A stretch of 64,000 nucleotides of DNA from Pseudoalteromonas piscicida (GTDB lineage Bacteria; Pseudomonadota; Gammaproteobacteria; Enterobacterales; Alteromonadaceae): contig NZ_CP011925.1 in assembly GCF_000238315.3 (NCBI RefSeq), positions 868,001 through 932,000 on the forward strand. Direction: 5' to 3'. The notes beneath the pieces are model-generated. The model saw only the letters and a list, made by a program, of their open reading frames with translations. It ran no database searches and was not told the origin of the DNA. Positions 22,436 through 30,711 of the stretch are shown here, piece by piece. The stretch's first letter is position 1; each line of letters opens with the position of its first letter. Position numbers and translations under genes: made by a program.

Positions 22436-22488
22436 CCATTGTAAGCACTTCTTGGTCGGCGCTCTATCTTTGCGCCCATCAAGCTGAA

Positions 22489-23109
22489 CTAATCTAACCC
22501 CTTGCGCTGTATGTAGTTATGAAGAATAAATGCTTTGAGTTTTTCGTTATCGGTTTTATTCATTGCAAAGGATACGGCGAGCTCAAGTGGGCTTGCCACT
22601 TTTATCGAGTGGACATTTGCAAACAGTGGAATGGGGTCGGCAAGATATAATTTAGCAATCCGACTGATCACATTAATTTGGATTGCATTTGCTTGGTAGG
22701 GAAAAGTATTAATCAGTCCACCAGATTGGGATATGGAGACCATGTTAAACGGCATCATTTGAGGAGACAATCTAAATCTGACCGGCGTTGATGGGCAGGT
22801 ACGCCAGCTACGTGGCGCACTAGAGTTAGCGGCTTCCACGATATTAGGTGCTTCTAAGTTGTTGTCTAAAATCTCCATCAATGCCGATAGGTCGCTAAGT
22901 GGAAACTCGACCTGCTCGTTGGCATTTTTGGCAACGAGACTAAACTGAGAACTATTTGAAATACTCGCAAGTAACTTTTTAATCTCACTGTGAGTTTGCT
23001 GTTTTTGATCCCAAGCTTCCGGCAATAGCGAGCCTGCAACGCGATTACCGGCTAGGGTTCGGTTTATGAATTGTAATTCTTCCTTCGTCAATTTCATGAT
23101 TAAGCACAT
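22489..23109 (-). CDS. Hypothetical protein, possible PilZ-like C-terminal half
   Basis: 206 residues (202 if the second ATG at 23097 is used; neither has a good ribosome site). Soluble, no signal peptide. The stretch RFRLSPQMMPFNMVSISQSGGLI resembles the basic beta-strand entry of PilZ-like domains, but the defining RxxxR and D/NxSxxG motifs are not clear, so I do not call it. Converges with lysE on the opposite strand. Function unknown. Confidence 0.55.
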   Translation of the reverse strand: MCLIMKLTKEELQFINRTLAGNRVAGSLLPEAWDQKQQTHSEIKKLLASISNSSQFSLVAKNANEQVEFPLSDLSALMEILDNNLEAPNIVEAANSSAPRSWRTCPSTPVRFRLSPQMMPFNMVSISQSGGLINTFPYQANAIQINVISRIAKLYLADPIPLFANVHSIKVASPLELAVSFAMNKTDNEKLKAFILHNYIQRKGLD

Positions 23110-23375
23110 CCATTGGGTGGTTGATATTTATACAGCAAGGTTTATACCAAATTCCGCTTTCGTTGCTATTGCGGCGTTTCTTTTTTAAGTACGGGCTTTG
23201 CAATTTGTTCAGCAGTAGACTTGTTGCCATTTAGCCTTCAAATAGGGCAACCTAACGTACCTAAGCGGCAATGAATTGCCCATGAAGCTGTACGAGTTAT
23301 TTAAGAAAATGAAATATTTCCGTGTTCAGTGGCTATTGATATGAATTCATCGGCTGATTGTTGAAAATATTTATT

Positions 23376-23391
23376 TGGAATAATGCTTGCA
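23376..23391 (+). promoter_or_regulatory. Candidate sigma-54 promoter
   Basis: TGGAATAATGCTTGCA keeps the -24 GG and the full TTGCA of the -12 element with correct spacing (about 9 of 12 conserved positions), 38 bases upstream of the next ATG. The rest of 23110-23428 shows no gene I can support. Confidence 0.4.
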
Positions 23392-23428
23392 AAGGTCTAG
23401 CACCGAGATTGTTTTTTAGCCTTGCCCA

Positions 23429-24127
23429 ATGCCAACGTTTTTAACTGGACATCAAGTATCGCTCATAGAGCCTACTTCACTGAACTTTTCACCTGTAGAG
23501 CGAGAGAAGTTAGTGATCCCGAGCGCTCATAATCAGCTTACAGCAAATGACAATCACCTTGCTGCTGGTGGGGGGCGTGCTCACACCTTTAAACAAAACT
23601 TTATGAATGCCATGAGCAGTGGCTCGGCTAGCGAAACGTCGCAACATGACAAAAATGAAGCGTTACTGCAGTTCCAATTTGCGGATCACGAAGTTCTATT
23701 CGACCTTACAAGCATCGCCTCTCATGATGAGGCTGCTTACGAAAAGCTCCGAGCGTTGCTGGCTGATATGATGACAAGGCCTGTAAAGGTTGATATCAGT
23801 AGTAAAGATCAAGCGCAGCAATTACTGTTTAAAAATTTAGAGCTAGATTTTTTAGCGTACAAGGAGCTCTCTGAGCGGTTGGAAATGTTAGCAAAGCTTG
23901 ACCATGAAACCGAAAGTCAAAAAGCATTGGCACAGCAAGATAGAGATCGCATTCGTGCGGTAATTGCCAGTTTACATGCACGTCTAGAGAAGGGCCAAGA
24001 GGCGTTACTCGGTGGAACAACATTAAAAGCGTTGGATGTAAATCGCAAAGATTTTGAGCTTGAATTAGATAGCCTATTTACCAGTGTTGGCTTTGATTCG
24101 GATATGCCAGTAACTGGCATGACTTGA
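23429..24127 (+). CDS. Hypothetical cytoplasmic protein with coiled-coil segment
   Basis: 232 residues with no signal peptide or membrane helix and no cysteine. The C-terminal half (about residues 135-205) is charged and heptad-rich, probably a coiled coil. No ribosome site is obvious before the ATG. A sigma-54-like promoter lies 38 bases upstream, which would fit a regulated motility or stress role, but that is inference. The last codons form an inverted repeat (ATGCCAG/CTGGCAT, 24104-24120). It borders the accessory island that begins immediately downstream. No family recognised. Confidence 0.55.
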   Translation: MPTFLTGHQVSLIEPTSLNFSPVEREKLVIPSAHNQLTANDNHLAAGGGRAHTFKQNFMNAMSSGSASETSQHDKNEALLQFQFADHEVLFDLTSIASHDEAAYEKLRALLADMMTRPVKVDISSKDQAQQLLFKNLELDFLAYKELSERLEMLAKLDHETESQKALAQQDRDRIRAVIASLHARLEKGQEALLGGTTLKALDVNRKDFELELDSLFTSVGFDSDMPVTGMT

Positions 24128-24405
24128 TTACCGTGATCATTATTGTTTGCTGGGATTTGTACTTTTTACCAGGTATAAAATGTAGTAGCCCATACCCGAA
24201 TCTCACCGTTTAAAAAGAACGGGGCTAGACTTTATCTGACATACGTTTTGAGCGAACAAAAGACGGTCGTCAACGTTACTTTTGTTCCACAAAGCGCACG
24301 TTCTATTAAGCTAACCCACTAAAAGCGAAGGCTAACACCGTGTGGGAGTCATTATGTCTATAACACAGAATCAACTCCTTGCTCAAAACGGTTAGTTGAA
24401 CTATT
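24128..24405. other. Non-coding left margin of the accessory island
   Basis: No supportable gene in any frame; only short interrupted frames. I see no insertion-sequence ends or tRNA-like structure here. Confidence 0.5.
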
Positions 24406-24429
24406 ATTTGTACGTTATTTTGTACCAAT
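24406..24429. promoter_or_regulatory. Candidate toxin-antitoxin operator
   Basis: Inverted repeat ATTTGTAC-N8-GTACCAAT (7 of 8 positions paired) directly upstream of the antitoxin ribosome site, where Phd/YefM proteins usually autoregulate. Confidence 0.45.
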
Positions 24430-24440
24430 TGGAGTTCAAT

Positions 24441-24722
24441 ATGAGTCGTATTCATTTCGATCAAGATATTCAGCCGTTATCTGAATTTCGCTCAGGTGTG
24501 GCTTCTTACATCAAACAAATCAATGAGACTCGCCGTCCATTGGTCATTACACAACGTGGTAAAGGTGTAGCTGTTGTTCTCGATGTTGCAGAGTATGAAG
24601 CAATGCAAGAGAAAATCGAATTACTTGAAGAAATGCGCACAGCTGAAGCTCAATTTGCTTCAGGGCTTGGTGTTTCCAATGAAGATGCTCGTGCTCAAGC
24701 ACTGGGGCGCATTAAGAAATGA
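24441..24722 (+). CDS. Phd/YefM-family antitoxin
   Basis: 93 residues from the ATG at 24441, which has GGAG six bases upstream (a longer frame from 24396 lacks a ribosome site and would cover the operator). RSGVASYIKQINETRRPLVITQRGKGVAVVLDVAEYEAM is the characteristic DNA-binding Phd/YefM fold; the C-terminal part (about 55-93) should neutralise the toxin. It overlaps the toxin gene by four bases (ATGA), the usual arrangement. As a DNA-binding antitoxin it probably represses its own promoter. Confidence 0.9.
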   Translation: MSRIHFDQDIQPLSEFRSGVASYIKQINETRRPLVITQRGKGVAVVLDVAEYEAMQEKIELLEEMRTAEAQFASGLGVSNEDARAQALGRIKK

Positions 24723-25006
24723 AAGTAGTTTGGTCTCCATTAGCGCTTCAGAAGCTAGGAGATGCAGCAGAATTTATTTCTTTGGATAATCCACCTGCGG
24801 CAGAAAAGTGGGTAAACGAAGTTTTTGACAAAACTGAACTACTTGGAAGTATGCCTGAAATGGGGCGTTTTGTTCCTGAAATGCCCAATACTAACTATCG
24901 TGAAATCATTTTTGGTCACTATCGTATTATCTATAGCTTAAGCCATGAGATTCGCGTACTAACAGTTCGTAATTGTCGTCAAATGTTGTCAGAAGATGAC
25001 GTGTAA
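24719..25006 (+). CDS. RelE/ParE-family toxin
   Basis: 95 residues with the family pattern: VVWSPLALQKLGDAAEFISLDNPPAAEKWV (two N-terminal helices), PEMGRFVPEM, YREIIFGHYRIIYSL and a closing basic strand. The R-x(n)-YRIIY core suits either gyrase-poisoning ParE or ribosome-dependent RelE activity; the sequence cannot decide. Translationally coupled to the antitoxin. Probably stabilises the accessory region (inference). Confidence 0.88.
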   Translation: MKVVWSPLALQKLGDAAEFISLDNPPAAEKWVNEVFDKTELLGSMPEMGRFVPEMPNTNYREIIFGHYRIIYSLSHEIRVLTVRNCRQMLSEDDV

Positions 25007-25027
25007 AACTGTTTTATAATCGAGTAG

Positions 25028-25118
25028 CCGAGGGTATCTAGCCCTCAGCCCCACAACACCCTGCATACGGGTCCGTACAGGGCGTTTCATCTAACAGATT
25101 ACCCGGTTGGGTAATGCA
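25028..25118. other. Three consecutive hairpins, structured non-coding element
   Basis: Within about 90 bases lie GAGGG/CCCTC, an interrupted 10-bp stem (CCCTG-ca-TACGG with CCGTA-CAGGG) and TTACCC/GGGTAA. There is no gene here. It may be a BIME-like cluster, the scar of a larger element or a structured RNA. The stretch 25119-25241 shows nothing else except a short G-run. Confidence 0.45.
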
Positions 25119-25241
25119 CTTTTATCCATCCGTCTCTGAGTGAATATAGTCCCTCGTTTTTCAGATAATTTAAGCTTAAAGCCTGTTGAATACCGGGGGG
25201 GGAACTGCGCCAAGGCCCTTTACTTGTGAGGAAAAAAAGGG

Positions 25242-25641
25242 AAAATAAGTGACATCCATCTCAGAAAAATAAGTGACATCCATCACTATTGATATTCAAG
25301 CTGGGGAAGTGAAGTAAAAAAGAGAAAAATAAGTGACATCCATCACTATTGATATTCAAGCTGGGGAAGTGAAGTAAAAAAAGTATGTAAACACTCCAAT
25401 CATTTTGGTCAAAAACGTTCATTAGATAAGAAAATAAGTGACATCCACTGAAGAAAATAAGTGACATCCACCACTATGGAAAATAAGTGACATCCATCAC
25501 TATTGATATTCAAGCTGGGGAAGTGAAGTAAAAAAGAGAAAAATAAGTGACATCCATCACTATTGATATTCAAGCTGGGGAAGTGAAGTAAAAAAGTATG
25601 TAAACACTCCAATCATTTTGGTCAAAAACGTTCATTAGATA
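25242..25641. repeat. Nested REP-like tandem array
   Basis: Seven copies of the core AATAAGTGACATCC begin at 25244, 25268, 25328, 25433, 25456, 25482 and 25542. Four lie in about 60-base units carrying an identical tail, and a 46-base trailer recurs at 25383-25428 and 25596-25641, so a block of about 213 bases has been duplicated. The units are non-coding. The adjacent RAYT gene and an inverted core copy on its far side (26793-26807) suggest these are its cognate REP sequences. Confidence 0.8.
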
Positions 25642-25753
25642 GGCTAATTCTTATCGCCTAGGCGTATCTCTACAATAAAACTGGGTTATCGCGCACGACA
25701 ACGCGCTGTAAATACAACAGTAAGAAATTCTAGCGTTGAGAATGTGAGTTTTG

Positions 25754-26725
25754 CTAAGCCAACAAGCGCTCGCAGTTTGTTAGGTTTGTCCGTCGTCGTT
25801 TTTGAAGTGTTTCGCAGTAAGCGGTTATTGTCCGCTCTCGACCAACTGCACCGTGAAATACCCGTGAAAATTGTGTAGTGAGTTTTATCCAGTTTTCAGG
25901 TTCGATATTTAATCGAGAGAGTATAGGTTGTGACTCAAAGATATGACCTCGCTTGTCGGCGCGAATACATTGGCCTGTGAGTTCAACCAACTCAATATAG
26001 GATTTGAGCTCAAAAGGCAGTCCTTTCGGCATATGTTTTTTTGGGCTGCCAGCAAAGCGTAGTAGGCTTTTTGGCTGTTTACCTAATTTCGCATGGTCAA
26101 TTCGCTTTTTGATGCTGGTGTAGTCTGAGGTTTCAGGCGTTGCGGCGATGTTGGCTCTAATGGGGTTTAGGTCTACGTATGCGAGACAAGCTACCAGTGC
26201 AGCTTCATCCAGTAATGCTTGGGATTTAAATCGTCCTTCCCAAAATCTGCCTGTACAATTATCTTCTTTATTTGCTCGGCGGGCGATGTCTTCGTTAAGC
26301 ACTCGCATAAACCAGCTAATATCTGCGAGCCTTTCTCTGCACTCATCAACCAGCTCGTCGAATATCAATTGCTCCGATTCATTGAGAGCCTCACCTTCAA
26401 TAAACTTTTGGCTTATCCAATTACCTTTAAACAGTTTGTGCCATCGTATGACAATCGCTTCATCCGACAGGCGCTCAGTCTTTCTATCATCAACATATAA
26501 AACAATGTGAGTGTGATTACTCATCACGGCATAAGCACAGATATCAATACAAAACACAGACCCCAACATCAGGAGCTTTTCTTCAACCCAATCACGGCGG
26601 TGTTCGTATGATTTGCCAGTAAATTTATCTTCACCACACAGAAAAGCACGCCTTACGCAACGGGAGATACAGTGGTAGTATTTGGTGTCGGTTAAACTAA
26701 TTTGTCTTTTACGGGCAATAGCCAT
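25754..26725 (-). CDS. REP-associated tyrosine transposase (RAYT, Y1_Tnp family)
   Basis: 323 residues. N-terminal SLTDTKYYHCISRCVRRAFLCGED is the RAYT signature; the HUH metal site is NHTHIV (His71, His73), and the likely nucleophile is Tyr183 in AYVDLNPIRA. The C-terminal extension resembles marine-gammaproteobacterial RAYTs. These single-copy transposases nick and move REP hairpins. The gene is flanked by the REP-like array downstream and an inverted core copy upstream, and its upstream flank abuts the truncated integron integrase. It appears intact. Confidence 0.88.
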   Translation of the reverse strand: MAIARKRQISLTDTKYYHCISRCVRRAFLCGEDKFTGKSYEHRRDWVEEKLLMLGSVFCIDICAYAVMSNHTHIVLYVDDRKTERLSDEAIVIRWHKLFKGNWISQKFIEGEALNESEQLIFDELVDECRERLADISWFMRVLNEDIARRANKEDNCTGRFWEGRFKSQALLDEAALVACLAYVDLNPIRANIAATPETSDYTSIKKRIDHAKLGKQPKSLLRFAGSPKKHMPKGLPFELKSYIELVELTGQCIRADKRGHIFESQPILSRLNIEPENWIKLTTQFSRVFHGAVGRERTITAYCETLQKRRRTNLTNCERLLA

Positions 26726-26792
26726 AGTTTGGTTTCCTCAATCCTTTGAGTGCAGAATTAAAGCTTAGGCGGTATCTTAGGAAGGTGCAAAT

Positions 26793-26811
26793 TAGTGGTG
26801 GGTGTCAGCGA
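26793..26811. repeat. Inverted single REP-core copy at the integrase junction
   Basis: Reverse complement reads TGACACCCACCACTA, 14 of 15 identical to the copy at 25456. It lies between the RAYT gene and the end of the truncated intI. Confidence 0.65.
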
Positions 26812-26818
26812 TTTACCG

Positions 26819-27394
26819 CTATTTTAAGTATTCATCAGCCTGAGCAATTTGATTTCTTAGCAAAGGTATAAGTTCTGTGGCGAGAGTAACCACCCGATGT
26901 TTATTCCCTTTTCCATTCCAGATCCGAATGCACTTGTAGTCAAAGTCAATGTCCTGAACTCGTAGTTGAACAGCTTCCATTACACGTAAGCCGCTACCAT
27001 ACATTAAGCCTGAAATTAAATAATATCGTTTACTTAAAAACGACATGAGACGTTTAACCTCCTCGGGGGCCATAACAATTGGCAACTTAGATTGGCGCTT
27101 GCTTCTGATAAACGTTAGATTGGGGCACAAATCCTGTTTAATTATTTGCTTATACAGAAAAGATAATGCATTTAACGCTGTCGCTTGTGTTTTAGGCGAC
27201 ACATTACGTTTAAGCACAAGGTAGTCGAGATATTCGACAACCTCGTTATCGCCCATTGAAGCTGGGTGACGCTTATCATGAAAATGAATATAGGAAGAAA
27301 TCCACTTAAGATATGTATCAACTGTTCTGAGCGAATATTGCTTAGTCAGCATAAACTCTGCGATGTGGTTTAGAAATGGTGAACGAGTTCTCAT
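26819..27394 (-). pseudogene. intI: Truncated integron integrase (IntI)
   Basis: 191 residues versus about 320-340 for full IntI. The N-terminal SAM-like domain is typical of integron integrases (SLRTVDTYLKWISSYIHFH then KRHPAS). The first catalytic Arg region (YGSGLRVMEAVQLR) and the Lys region (NGKGNKHR) are present. Everything after EYLK is missing: the IntI-specific insertion, the HxxR box and the tyrosine nucleophile. The frame ends a few bases from the REP-core copy beside the RAYT, so that element probably truncated it. A LexA box precedes the gene. Recombination activity should be lost. Confidence 0.9.
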
Positions 27395-27415
27395 TGAATT
27401 AGCTCTAAAAAGAAA

Positions 27416-27431
27416 CTGTATTTATATACAG
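27416..27431 (-). promoter_or_regulatory. LexA (SOS) box of intI
   Basis: CTGTATTTATATACAG matches the gammaproteobacterial LexA consensus (CTG-N10-CAG with AT core), about 25 bases upstream of the intI start. Integron integrases are known to be SOS-controlled. Confidence 0.85.
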
Positions 27432-27458
27432 TATTGGCGTATTTCTCCTATAGTCAAG

Positions 27459-27616
27459 AAAACGACTCACTGGGTCGTTTTTATCCTTTTCATAGTTTCT
27501 ATAATGATTAAAATATATCTGTAGCAACAAGTTAGTTATTGTGATAAAACTGGTACAATGAGAATAATGACCCATGACTCGGTAGATAAACGACCCATTG
27601 GGTCGATATTAAATTG
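27459..27616. other. Integron attI region with two related palindromes
   Basis: Palindromes with an ACGAC...GTCG core lie at 27459-27481 and 27590-27605, and a partial TGACCCATGACTCGG lies just before the second. The recombination point GTTAAGAG (27616-27623) follows. A cassette promoter is possible (TTGTGA at 27539, AATAAT at 27563, spacer 18). Confidence 0.55.
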
Positions 27617-27638
27617 TTAAGAGCCACAAGGAGAAATC

Positions 27639-28409
27639 GTGAGCATCAAGGAATTTTCCGAATCTGCTAAGGGGTTTACGAAAAGCCCGCTAGGCATAAT
27701 AGCTCTATTTATTGTGCTTGTTTATGGATTCGCATCGCTAGTGGTGGGCTTCGGGCAAAATCTCACAAATCATATAGCGCCACTCATATACTTTATGGTG
27801 TTCTTCCCTGTAATTGTATTCTGCGGGTTTCTTTGGCTTGTAGCAAAGCATCACAATAAGCTTTACGACCCCTCTGACTTTAAAGACGAAGAAAACTTCC
27901 TCAAAACACAGATTTCATCGGCAGTTTCCCTAGCCGCTGCCGTATCAAAACATCCAGATAATTCAGGAGAGCTTCATCAAGATCAACTTGATGAAATTGT
28001 AGAGCTTGTCTCTAAAACCAAGAAATCCGCTCCTAATGAAAAATGGAAAAATCGCGTGCTTTGGGTTGATGATCGACCCGAAAATAATGTTTATGAGCGG
28101 CAGGCTTTTGAAGAGCAAGGTTTACATTTCGAACTAGCGTTATCTACTGATGAGGCGATTCAAACACTAAAACATAAGAAGTTCGCCGCGATAATTTCCG
28201 ATATGGGAAGAAAAGAAGGGCCCCAAGAAGGATATGTACTTCTTGATCGGCTCAGAAAATCAGGCAATAACACGCCTTTTGTAATATATGCAGGTTCAAA
28301 TTTGCCAGAGCATAAGCGAATGGCTCGTGAGCGTGGTGCGTTAGGTAGCACCAATAGAGCTCAAGAGTTATTTCAACTAGTCATGGGGGCCGTGCAAAAT
28401 GACTCTTAA
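27639..28409 (+). CDS. Integron cassette 1: two-TM protein with receiver-like domain
   Basis: 256 residues; GTG start with AAGGAG upstream. Two transmembrane helices (about 18-38 and 44-69), a linker, then a receiver-like domain (about 138-255). LWVDDRP carries the acidic pair Asp144/145 and ISDMGR the acceptor-like Asp188, but the conserved Lys of true receivers is absent (GALGSTN instead). The gene lies in a cassette whose boundaries match (GTTAAGAG at 27616, CTCTTAAC at 28403). A membrane-anchored signalling or effector role is possible, and antiphage defence is plausible for an integron cargo, but no function is known to me. Confidence 0.8.
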   Translation: MSIKEFSESAKGFTKSPLGIIALFIVLVYGFASLVVGFGQNLTNHIAPLIYFMVFFPVIVFCGFLWLVAKHHNKLYDPSDFKDEENFLKTQISSAVSLAAAVSKHPDNSGELHQDQLDEIVELVSKTKKSAPNEKWKNRVLWVDDRPENNVYERQAFEEQGLHFELALSTDEAIQTLKHKKFAAIISDMGRKEGPQEGYVLLDRLRKSGNNTPFVIYAGSNLPEHKRMARERGALGSTNRAQELFQLVMGAVQNDS

Positions 28410-28470
28410 CAAAGCCAGCCAGAGGGACTTCCGCACTGCGTGCTCCAGCCCCTGCTGGCGGCGTTAGGTG
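28403..28470 (+). other. attC: attC recombination site of cassette 1
   Basis: R'' CTCTTAAC overlaps the stop codon; R' GTTAGGTG is at 28463. Between them GCCAGC pairs with GCTGGC, and an imperfect inner stem with unpaired bases follows, the usual folded attC form. R'' is the exact complement of the cassette start GTTAAGAG at 27616. Confidence 0.88.
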
Positions 28471-28479
28471 TACAAGCAG

Positions 28480-28899
28480 ATGCAGCCCAGATTAGAGATC
28501 GAATTTTTACGAGATGACCCTGCGAAAATATGGGTAAAGGCGAGCAATGAAACCTTCGCTGGAGAAACGGAGCACTACATAAATGCTCAAATGTTGGAAA
28601 AACTAGCAGAACAATTATCACTGTTTCCTCAATCTAACTCTGATAAAGTTACCTTTAAAGTTGGTGACATTGACTCACATTATGGGCATTGTGAGCTCAA
28701 ATTTCATTGCTTCGATTCTGCTGGTCATACGGCTGTATTAGTCTCTGTATCAAATGACAGAGCATGTATTGCAAAATTTGTTGTTCAATTTGAAGCTTTA
28801 TCATTGGATGCCTTTGTAGCTTCTATGAAATTAGCTTTAAAATCGGGGTCAGGTGTTTCAGAATTAATTGGTATAAAGCCGTATACACAAAACGTGTAA
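28480..28899 (+). CDS. Integron cassette 2: hypothetical protein
   Basis: 139 residues from the ATG at 28480; a GTG at 28468 is in frame but overlaps the attC R' box, and neither has a ribosome site, as is common in cassettes. Soluble, no signal or membrane helix. Mixed alpha/beta composition with three Cys/His-bearing strands (SHYGHCELKFHCFDSAGH). I recognise no family. The cassette start GTTAGGTGTAC and the sequence after the stop (GTACACCTAAC, 28900-28910) are exact complements, so it is a genuine cassette unit. Confidence 0.7.
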   Translation: MQPRLEIEFLRDDPAKIWVKASNETFAGETEHYINAQMLEKLAEQLSLFPQSNSDKVTFKVGDIDSHYGHCELKFHCFDSAGHTAVLVSVSNDRACIAKFVVQFEALSLDAFVASMKLALKSGSGVSELIGIKPYTQNV

Positions 28900-28910
28900 G
28901 TACACCTAAC
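28900..28910 (+). other. attC R'' box of cassette 2 (rest of site unresolved)
   Basis: GTACACCTAAC is the 11-base complement of the cassette 2 start. No convincing partner arm and GTT point are visible downstream; the site may be long or truncated. Confidence 0.65.
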
Positions 28911-29232
28911 ACATATGAACCTTATCCGGTCAAGTAAGCATAACGATTCTTTTTAGCTGCTTTTAAGCAGCTAATTTGTATTGGCAACGCTTAAACCTGT
29001 TCAACTTCGTTATGTCGGTTAGCCGTTAAATCGTTTACGGCAAACACATATAGGGGCGTTACGCCGTAATCTCTTAATGCGATCTCATCGCTGCTTAAAT
29101 CAGTCGATACAACTTATTGTTTAGGGCCACTAGACATTCATCGGTTAACCTTAATCTTGCGCTACTCAAGGGGATGTTTCGACTTAGAATTACAAACAAG
29201 TGTTCATCACTCATATCAAAAGTGTTTCTAAA
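28911..29232. other. Non-coding right margin of the integron
   Basis: No gene supported. A perfect 10-bp stem with a two-base loop (28953-28962 with 28965-28974) flanked by T-runs resembles a bidirectional terminator. The rest is featureless to me and may be decayed cassette sequence. Confidence 0.5.
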
Positions 29233-29560
29233 ATAAGCGAGTTATTGGCGTTTACGTACTTCTCGACGTCAAAATCAGCTTATCGCGCACGGCATTGGGA
29301 GGCTACGGTTAACGCAGCTTGAGGAGTTATTGCTAAAGCCTCTATTTGGTCCAGCCAGCAAACGTTCACAATTTGCTAGGTTTGTGCGCTGTCGTTTTTT
29401 GAGTTTTTTACAATAAGTGGTCAGTACTCGCTCTCGGCCATTCTTCAATGAATTTCTAAGTTACCCAGTTGCTTTTAAACAGCTTGTGCCAGCGTATCAC
29501 AATGGCTATATCAGATATACGACTAGCCTTTTTATCATCAACATGCAAATACAAACTTGA
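29233..29560 (-). pseudogene. Remnant of a second RAYT transposase
   Basis: Minus-strand homology to the intact RAYT at 25754-26725, in two pieces. The segment around 29330-29445 matches its 3' end (25740-25850), including non-coding sequence beyond the stop (shared TTATCGCGCACG). The segment around 29465-29555 matches an internal part (about 26410-26500; shared TTATCATCAACAT). The sequence between these parts is deleted and frames are broken, so it cannot encode an active enzyme. Confidence 0.75.
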
Positions 29561-29676: not shown

Positions 29677-30711
29677 ATGTTTTCCGAGAATGGATTTATT
29701 GCCAAGAATGAGTATCTCGTTAGTTTTCTGGTTTTGCTGTTAACCAGCGCCTTTGCCGTTGCCTTAGACTCGTTGCTGCATTCGGCGATCAGTGTGCTGC
29801 TGGTATTACAGTTGGGCGTTGTTGTTGTTTCTCTCATCGCAAAACGTTGGATGGCACTGGGAGTGGCGATTGTTAGCAGTCTAGTGTTCAACTTTTTTAT
29901 CACAGAGCCCAGATACACGCTTCATATGAATAACACCGAAGACGTGGTCAATTTAGTGGTATTTATCGCGGTGGCATTAGCTACCAGCTATTTATCGAGC
30001 TATATCAAAGAGCAAAAGCAGCAGCTTTTAGTTGCGAATGTGCGCTCTAATATCTTGTTGTCGGTTTCTCATGATTTACGTACACCGCTCGCTGCGGTGA
30101 TGGGCGCGCTCGAAACGCTAGAAACCTATCGTGATAAGTTAGACTAAGATGAGCAAAATGAGCTGTTGGGGTCGGCACGATCAGAGAGCCACCGTTTGTT
30201 TCGCTATATCGAAAATATTTTGCAAGCCACCAAGTTACAGCATCAAGGGGATGAGCTTTCGCTGTTGAAGCAACCTACGTCTATTGATGTCTTGATTGAT
30301 AACGTGATTTTGCGGCTAGGCGCGCCATGCGTCTCGAGAATGCCACAGAATATGAGTCCAATTCTCACGATACAAGCTGCACTCATTGAGCAAGCCCTGT
30401 TTAACTTAATTGAAAATGCAGTCACCTTTAGTCCCGATGGAGAGCGGGTTGAGATTTCCTTAGGAGAAACGCAGCAAGCGTTGTTGATATTTATTCAGGA
30501 TAACGGCCCTGGGATCCCCGTTGCTCGGCAAAAGGAAGTCTTTACCGCCTTTAGCTCGTTTCGACAAAGCGTCAGCAAAGACGGTGGCAGTGGCTTAGGG
30601 CTGAGTGTGGCGAGAGGTATTATTCGTGCGCACGGCGGTGATATTCGCATTTTGCCCACGACGCAAGGCTGCACAATGGAAGTTAGTTTGCCAAAAGAGG
30701 AGGCGCATTGA
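29677..30711 (+). pseudogene. KdpD-like sensor histidine kinase interrupted by an in-frame TAA
   Basis: GGAG precedes the ATG. Residues 1-156 hold four hydrophobic helices of the DUF4118/KdpD type and the H-box SHDLRTPLAAV with His132. Codon 157 is TAA (30145-30147), and the frame continues directly as DEQNELLGSARSESHRL with the N-box (LIENAVTF), DNGPGIP and GGSGLGLSVARG of a HATPase domain. Full length would be 344 residues, without the N-terminal KdpD/Usp domains of E. coli KdpD. A single substitution (such as CAA or GAA to TAA) explains this. The second half could start at TTG 30166 but lacks the H-box. Its stop overlaps the response-regulator start by one base. Confidence 0.85.

Follow-up and report, generated by a model that had tools for sequence, protein, structure and literature searches.

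Results

Organization of the integron locus

The window, the whole stretch of 64,000 nucleotides analysed here, lies on the 1.23-Mb second replicon (chromid) of a two-contig Pseudoalteromonas genome of the piscicida group. The locus carries a truncated integron integrase gene (intI) with its promoter, the attI side and two cassette genes, flanked by dispersed repeats, a RAYT element and other mobile DNA (Table 1).

Table 1. Features of the chromid integron locus, with positions in the window
Feature	Position	Strand	Remarks
232-aa gene	23429..24127	+	Conserved intI-side flank
58-bp dispersed repeat	24305..24362	+	Outer junction; the insert starts at 24310
Phd/YefM antitoxin and ParE toxin pair	24396..25006	+	Domain matches; the unit recurs elsewhere
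213-bp dispersed repeat	25017..25229	+	Three copies in G018 among the matches listed
RAYT right end	25230..25753		Tandem copies of the terminal part; unit common to other copies begins at 25548
RAYT gene	25754..26725	-	323 aa; REP_Tyr_transpos family, under the cut-off; HTH at 71, Y---NP at 183
RAYT left end	26726..26817		Abuts intI codon 191
intI remnant	26819..27394	-	191-aa ORF, codons 1-191 of 323; integron integrase family
LexA-type (SOS) box, intI promoter	27416..27431		CTGTATTTATATACAG; intact in sequence
attI-side sequence	27440..27619	+	Intact; conserved as far as ATTAAATTGTTA, diverging beyond
First cassette gene	27639..28409	+	256 aa; response-regulator receiver domain, residues 140-235
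attC of first cassette	28404..28469	+	Hand-made attC finder
Second cassette gene	28468..28899	+	143 aa; no family match
Dispersed repeat after second cassette	28907..29176	+	270 bp; adjoins an IS110-family transposase elsewhere in the genome (L119)
Decayed RAYT remnant, far end of array	29353..29560	-	Similarity to RAYT copies
Sensor histidine kinase gene, first reading frame	29677..30147	+	156 aa; DUF4118, HisKA; conserved cassette-side flank

The intI remnant matched the integron integrase model TIGR02249 at model positions 1-184 of 315 with 228.7 bits and belongs to this family, although it is truncated and scores under the cut-off of 265; the full-length paralogue on the chromosome of the same genome reached 462.4 bits over positions 1-314. 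The N-terminal SAM-like domain is retained. Alignment with the paralogue revealed that the GLRVMEA box (residue 135), which we take to be the first Arg box, is present, while the HTFRH box (residue 269), presumably the HxxR box, and the LGHSDVKTTQIYTH segment (residue 293), assumed to hold the tyrosine, are missing. With both regions gone, the locus holds no catalytically complete integrase. The initial annotation had stated that IntI ends after 191 residues and has lost the HxxR box and the nucleophilic tyrosine, while the SOS box and the attI side remain; the ORF, the TIGR02249 match, the alignment and the intact sequences outside the gene agree with it on each point.

The LexA-type box was also found, with few changes, in aligned intI-linked relatives. 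In the attI alignment, conservation extends to GTTA (ATTAAATTGTTA), and past that the DNA differs in nearly every relative, with the exception of one cassette common to NC201 and G104. The locus thus has the attI beside intI, followed by variable cassettes, of an integron, and the attC at the end of the first cassette supplies the attC-bearing cassette. This attC was the only one recovered in the window array by a hand-made finder that replaced two stricter earlier versions and still misses sites, so that all attC counts given here are lower bounds, and the default setting for a CALIN is at least two. In two control parts of the window, 1-22000 and 32000-64000, the same finder returned zero sites.

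The N-terminal part of the first cassette product is hydrophobic as judged by eye, and its gene was covered by none among the matches listed (two candidates scored per genome). DNA like the second cassette gene occurs in G065, G064, G055 and G023 among the matches listed. The repeat behind it is probably the remnant of an IS110 end. We take the histidine kinase of the cassette-side flank to be KdpD by name.

The DNA that replaces the 3' part of intI

The homology of intI to P. piscicida 2515 stops at window position 26821 and the homology to other RAYT copies stops at 26804-26817, with few bases between the two (ACTTAAAAT / AGCGGTAAATCGCTGACACC). The RAYT copies have a common unit of ~1.27 kb, and intI breaks off at the left end of this unit. 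The genome contains the RAYT gene in six full-length copies, one of them interrupted by a stop, as well as in several fragments; the other full-length copies are 92-94% identical in protein to the window copy.

HuH and Y---NP motifs are the RAYT signature given in PMC6006769, and the window protein carries an HTH at 71 and YVDLNP at 183. It remained below the curated cut-off (NF047646, 35.8 bits vs 80) and had no Pfam match. The GTGG tag is present at the RAYT ends, and DNA folding of four stretches gave no significant hairpin, with z of -0.13 and -1.54 for the two strands of the window left end and of 0.27 and 0.27 for the left and right end of another copy; 'REP' is therefore more a label than a result. 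The break had been placed next to an inverted REP core. A RAYT end does lie a few bases away, but a REP palindrome could not be demonstrated.

The far junction of the insert, at 24310, is not a RAYT end: the 58-bp repeat stands there, followed by the ParE/Phd pair and then by the second dispersed repeat. An origin of the latter (25017-25229) from a group II intron, guessed from the sequence, was unsupported, a search of Rfam having given nothing at E values up to 0.5. The toxin-antitoxin unit (24357-25020) was considered as a RAYT passenger and set aside, as it lies near a RAYT in G072 and G047 but in opposite relative orientation in G072. It is also unlikely to be a gene cassette, because just ~14 bp remain behind the toxin stop and no attC turned up at that place.

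Some further features of these elements were observed. The RAYT right end (window 25241-25641; also L035 and L081) carries a tandem repetition that differs in extent between copies, and several left ends are repeated as well. The 58-bp repeat has dozens of sites in the genus, sometimes directly before a gene start, and part of one copy of the 213-bp repeat lies beside a RAYT in G072.

The same locus in relatives

By this locus, the closest named relatives were P. piscicida 2515 and Pseudoalteromonas sp. NC201 (both plasmid records). Strain 2515 shares the flanking genes of 232 aa and 206 aa, and the intI next to them has 323 codons. Window 26821-27619, from intI codon 191 outward, was 98% identical to 2515, and window 22469-24309 on the opposite side of the locus was 95% identical. 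Between these matching flanks lie 420 bp in 2515 (the last 132 codons of intI and 22 bp past the stop) and 2,511 bp in the window.

Two of the checks proposed in the initial annotation were carried out. The search of the own genome for the missing 3' part of intI recovered it only inside the full-length paralogue C1:3006989 (98%), besides distant recombinases of at most 61% identity, and the part has therefore been deleted, not moved. The comparison with strains possessing a full-length intI at the same locus found such genes in P. piscicida 2515, G018 and G040 and, more divergent (83%), in G072, all of them RAYT-free at the breakpoint. The same truncation in relatives lacking the RAYT, which had been named as an observation that would speak against a role of this element, was not seen among the alleles read.

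Nine alleles of the chromid locus were readable, of which four are intact and five broken, by five routes: a nonsense mutation with a stop at codon 46 (G071), the loss of four residues at the HxxR box (NC201, the same as G075), an IS66-family insertion (G045), a loss leaving codons 264-323 alone beside a Y2-transposase (IS91-type) fragment (G034), and the cut at the RAYT end in the window. The chromid intI has thus been broken repeatedly, by several agents of which RAYT is one. The capture of the integron by a RAYT-linked event, as first proposed, was not supported as a RAYT-specific one, given these five routes and a far junction that is no RAYT end.

RAYT elements near integrons

A related intI is cut by a RAYT end near codon 93 in G018, G071 and G083, which represents a separate event; the rest of this gene was not found beyond the RAYT in these three genomes. 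Twelve of 50 full-length RAYT copies, in eight genomes, lay within 10 kb of intI or a remnant, against 0.48 expected by uniform placement; the 50 are matches of at least 74% identity without partial copies, and the four full-length matches of 60-67% identity that were left out, none of them near a listed intI, would make it 12/54. The intI list consists of the matches listed and the remnants seen at loci, and G072 and G075 may each hold one further weaker match.

An IS3-type transposase (rve domain) served as control, with 21 copies of 99-100% identity from two of the eight genomes after seven weaker matches were dropped. One of the 21 was near intI, compared with 12/50 for RAYT (Fisher P = 0.09); within the two genomes holding IS3 copies, the comparison was 1/21 against 3/10 (P = 0.09). 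Several of the RAYT copies share loci by descent, so that a general RAYT-integron link rests on few independent events. Cassette arrays tolerate insertions, and this is a further caution on the RAYT enrichment near intI. A targeted association of RAYT with attC or attI is not claimed, given that no common target was visible, that descent is shared and that the IS3 control was not significant. At the RAYT junctions only a pyrimidine before AAATCGCTGACACC recurs, in most piscicida-group copies. No title on RAYT elements in integrons was found among the literature titles listed.

One RAYT copy (G051) lies within an attC-like sequence as judged by eye, and a RAYT left end in G034:C8 (L093 7916-8114) directly adjoins a second, partial attI copy.

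Other integrases and attI copies of the genome

The chromosome encodes an intact IntI (C1:3006989) that is 97% identical to the window IntI over the common part, and its attI is 95-97% identical to that of the window. A second type of IntI is also encoded in the genome. A third attI was located at G000:C1:1989923-1990102 (L119 10922-11102), where, by eye, intI is internally deleted to a few first and last codons and the LexA box is retained. With this intact enzyme and its near-identical attI on the chromosome, the window array could be served in trans, and judged from these identities it is possible that its cassettes are exchangeable by the chromosomal IntI. The freezing of the array suggested in the initial annotation was not supported, with this IntI, its attI and the third attI in the same genome.

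attI sites across the genus

The attI search matched 41 of 108 genomes at E 1e-10; at most seven candidates were scored per genome, which makes the attI copy number a lower bound. The 180-bp attI sequence also occurs in genomes in which the window IntI has no match (E 1e-20), among them G024, G027 and G029. Lacking an IntI of the window type, these genomes hold cassettes that it cannot move now, and such platforms count against a trans reading.

In the alignment, sites without intI carry one of two short 'caps' in the intI position. The tally was made from the best 60 matches (E to 2.2e-42, weaker ones dropped), of which 58 cover the attI body and two do not. Half of the 58 sites, 29 in 20 genomes, have a cap, and 29 in 18 genomes have none. 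Among the uncapped sites, by our reading of the loci, three have an intact adjacent IntI (the chromosome of this genome, G018 and G080), 20 a damaged, truncated or internally deleted one and five no adjacent IntI, and one runs into a contig end inside intI. As a rule, then, close copies of this attI in the genus (best 58 sites) stand without a working intI, and the window locus exemplifies a broader tendency of such integrons to part with the integrase while retaining the attI.

No IntI match stood beside the capped attI in any of 23 sites examined; at one capped site (L120) a decayed IntI lies ~4 kb off. An attC in the right orientation was found within 2.5 kb downstream at 13 of the 23 capped sites, and none by this finder at the other 10. 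Their counts were 21 attC downstream, one site serving two neighbouring attI copies, vs one upstream that is attributable to an adjacent attI. Over all 45 attI matches, into which one locus entered twice (L006, L081), 30 had an attC within 4 kb downstream, and the totals were 51 downstream vs three upstream. A search with the cap-attI sequence gave nothing among 50,697 phage records; among 72,556 plasmid records, the replicons of 2515 and NC201 were its sole matches.

An outer boundary motif, TTTTGGGGCAGAAACGAGTTA (at most five mismatches), is common to attI sites with and without a cap; 43 matches were counted in 557 kb of examined loci, some of these loci overlapping, vs 1.3 in mononucleotide shuffles. 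The 3' end of an IntI accounts for 14 of the matches and the neighbourhood of a cap or attI for 16; the remaining 13 have other positions. The motif may delimit a mobile platform on its outer side.

In complete integrons TTTTGGGGCAGAAACGAGTTA lies immediately past intI; the capped sites that carry it as well include L105 2877-3165, L106, L107, L109 and L113, and the host DNA past the motif differs between sites.

Discussion

We read the window locus, with considerable confidence, as a formerly complete chromid integron. Its intI now stops where a multicopy RAYT element has its left end, and the LexA box, the attI and a cassette with its attC have been retained; the present state would have arisen by a RAYT insertion and a second event, with cassette exchange in trans as a possibility. 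The RAYT element would have inserted into intI, and a second, separate event, either a deletion or a recombination with another repeat, would then have removed the 3' part of the gene. In place of the 420 bp now stands the 2,511-bp mosaic of RAYT element, dispersed repeats and toxin-antitoxin pair. The second step is inferred from the far junction, which is not a RAYT end, so that one insertion does not explain the whole replacement. Among the loci compared, no intermediate was found in which a RAYT sits within an intI that is otherwise complete, and the order of events given here is accordingly a reconstruction. What is left would be an integrase-less attI platform, on which the chromosomal IntI could still exchange cassettes in trans.

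Neutral decay is about evenly poised as an account of the breakage: the chromid intI would be weakly constrained, and RAYT would merely be one of several elements that broke it. The four intact and five differently broken alleles favor it, as does the survey PMC3108266, in the accessible text of which 43-46% of integron integrases are predicted inactive, and the IS3-type control failed to separate RAYT from another element in both comparisons. On the other side, 12 of 50 RAYT copies near intI or a remnant far exceed the uniform expectation, and intI was cut by RAYT ends in two separate events.

That the array is frozen, the loss of the local integrase having ended cassette exchange at the site, appears somewhat less likely than not. 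The local IntI has lost catalytic residues and the finder used gave one attC only, but the chromosomal IntI and its attI, with the identities given above, reside in the same cell. An assembly error at a junction of repeated elements is very improbable: the RAYT is six-fold in the genome and assemblies err at repeats, but the other full-length copies differ from the window RAYT in protein, the genome was assembled as two contigs, and analogous RAYT-intI junctions occur in three other genomes.

The integron cut at the RAYT left end resembles a chromosomal integron with an inactivated integrase, in that IntI is broken while cassettes, attI and LexA box are kept. In the part of PMC3108266 available, inactivation correlates with the loss of the LexA site, with outliers named; the inactivated integrons described there tend to lack this site, whereas in the window the LexA box is intact and the breaking element, a RAYT end, is identified. 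With a CALIN the window shares attC-bearing cassettes without a functional neighbouring integrase, but it keeps a recognisable attI, and its single attC found is under the IntegronFinder 2.0 default. According to the available text of PMC9024848, CALINs are proposed to be degraded integrons and number 2,961 against 2,760 complete integrons in a public survey, and IntegronFinder 2.0 does not detect attI outside class 1. Loci such as the present one would thus be counted as CALIN or missed.

The window element is akin to RAYT / TnpA-REP (REPtron) systems in its HTH (HuH-type) and Y---NP motifs, the GTGG in the terminal tag and a sub-cut-off REP_Tyr_transpos match. As far as PMC6006769 was available, RAYT genes generally occur as one full-length gene per REP type, do not transpose as a unit and are of low copy number except in subclass 2.3. 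The window RAYT differs from this by six full-length copies with common ends and by the lack of a significant hairpin at the ends folded.

The origin of integrase-less cassette clusters has so far been argued more than shown. One genome here makes three stages visible, an intact integron, an intI cut at a mobile element and an intI internally deleted, with attI kept in all. Rather speculatively, and with fairly low confidence, Pseudoalteromonas may hold satellite integrons, that is, attI and cassettes with no working integrase of their own, which would outnumber the complete ones of the same type and be usable in trans where an intact IntI is kept; the window would then be a recent recruit by way of the RAYT cut. 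If attI platforms were served in trans, the capacity for capture would be set by the number of attI, not of integrases. The literature titles listed yielded nothing on attI platforms without intI in Pseudoalteromonas.

Other tyrosine recombinases were observed next to attI copies. The third attI of this genome (L119) is adjoined by a recombinase of 198 aa, and directly behind the attI of the integron in G083:C41 (L142 768-1568) lies the gene of a second such enzyme, which shares 28% identity with IntI.
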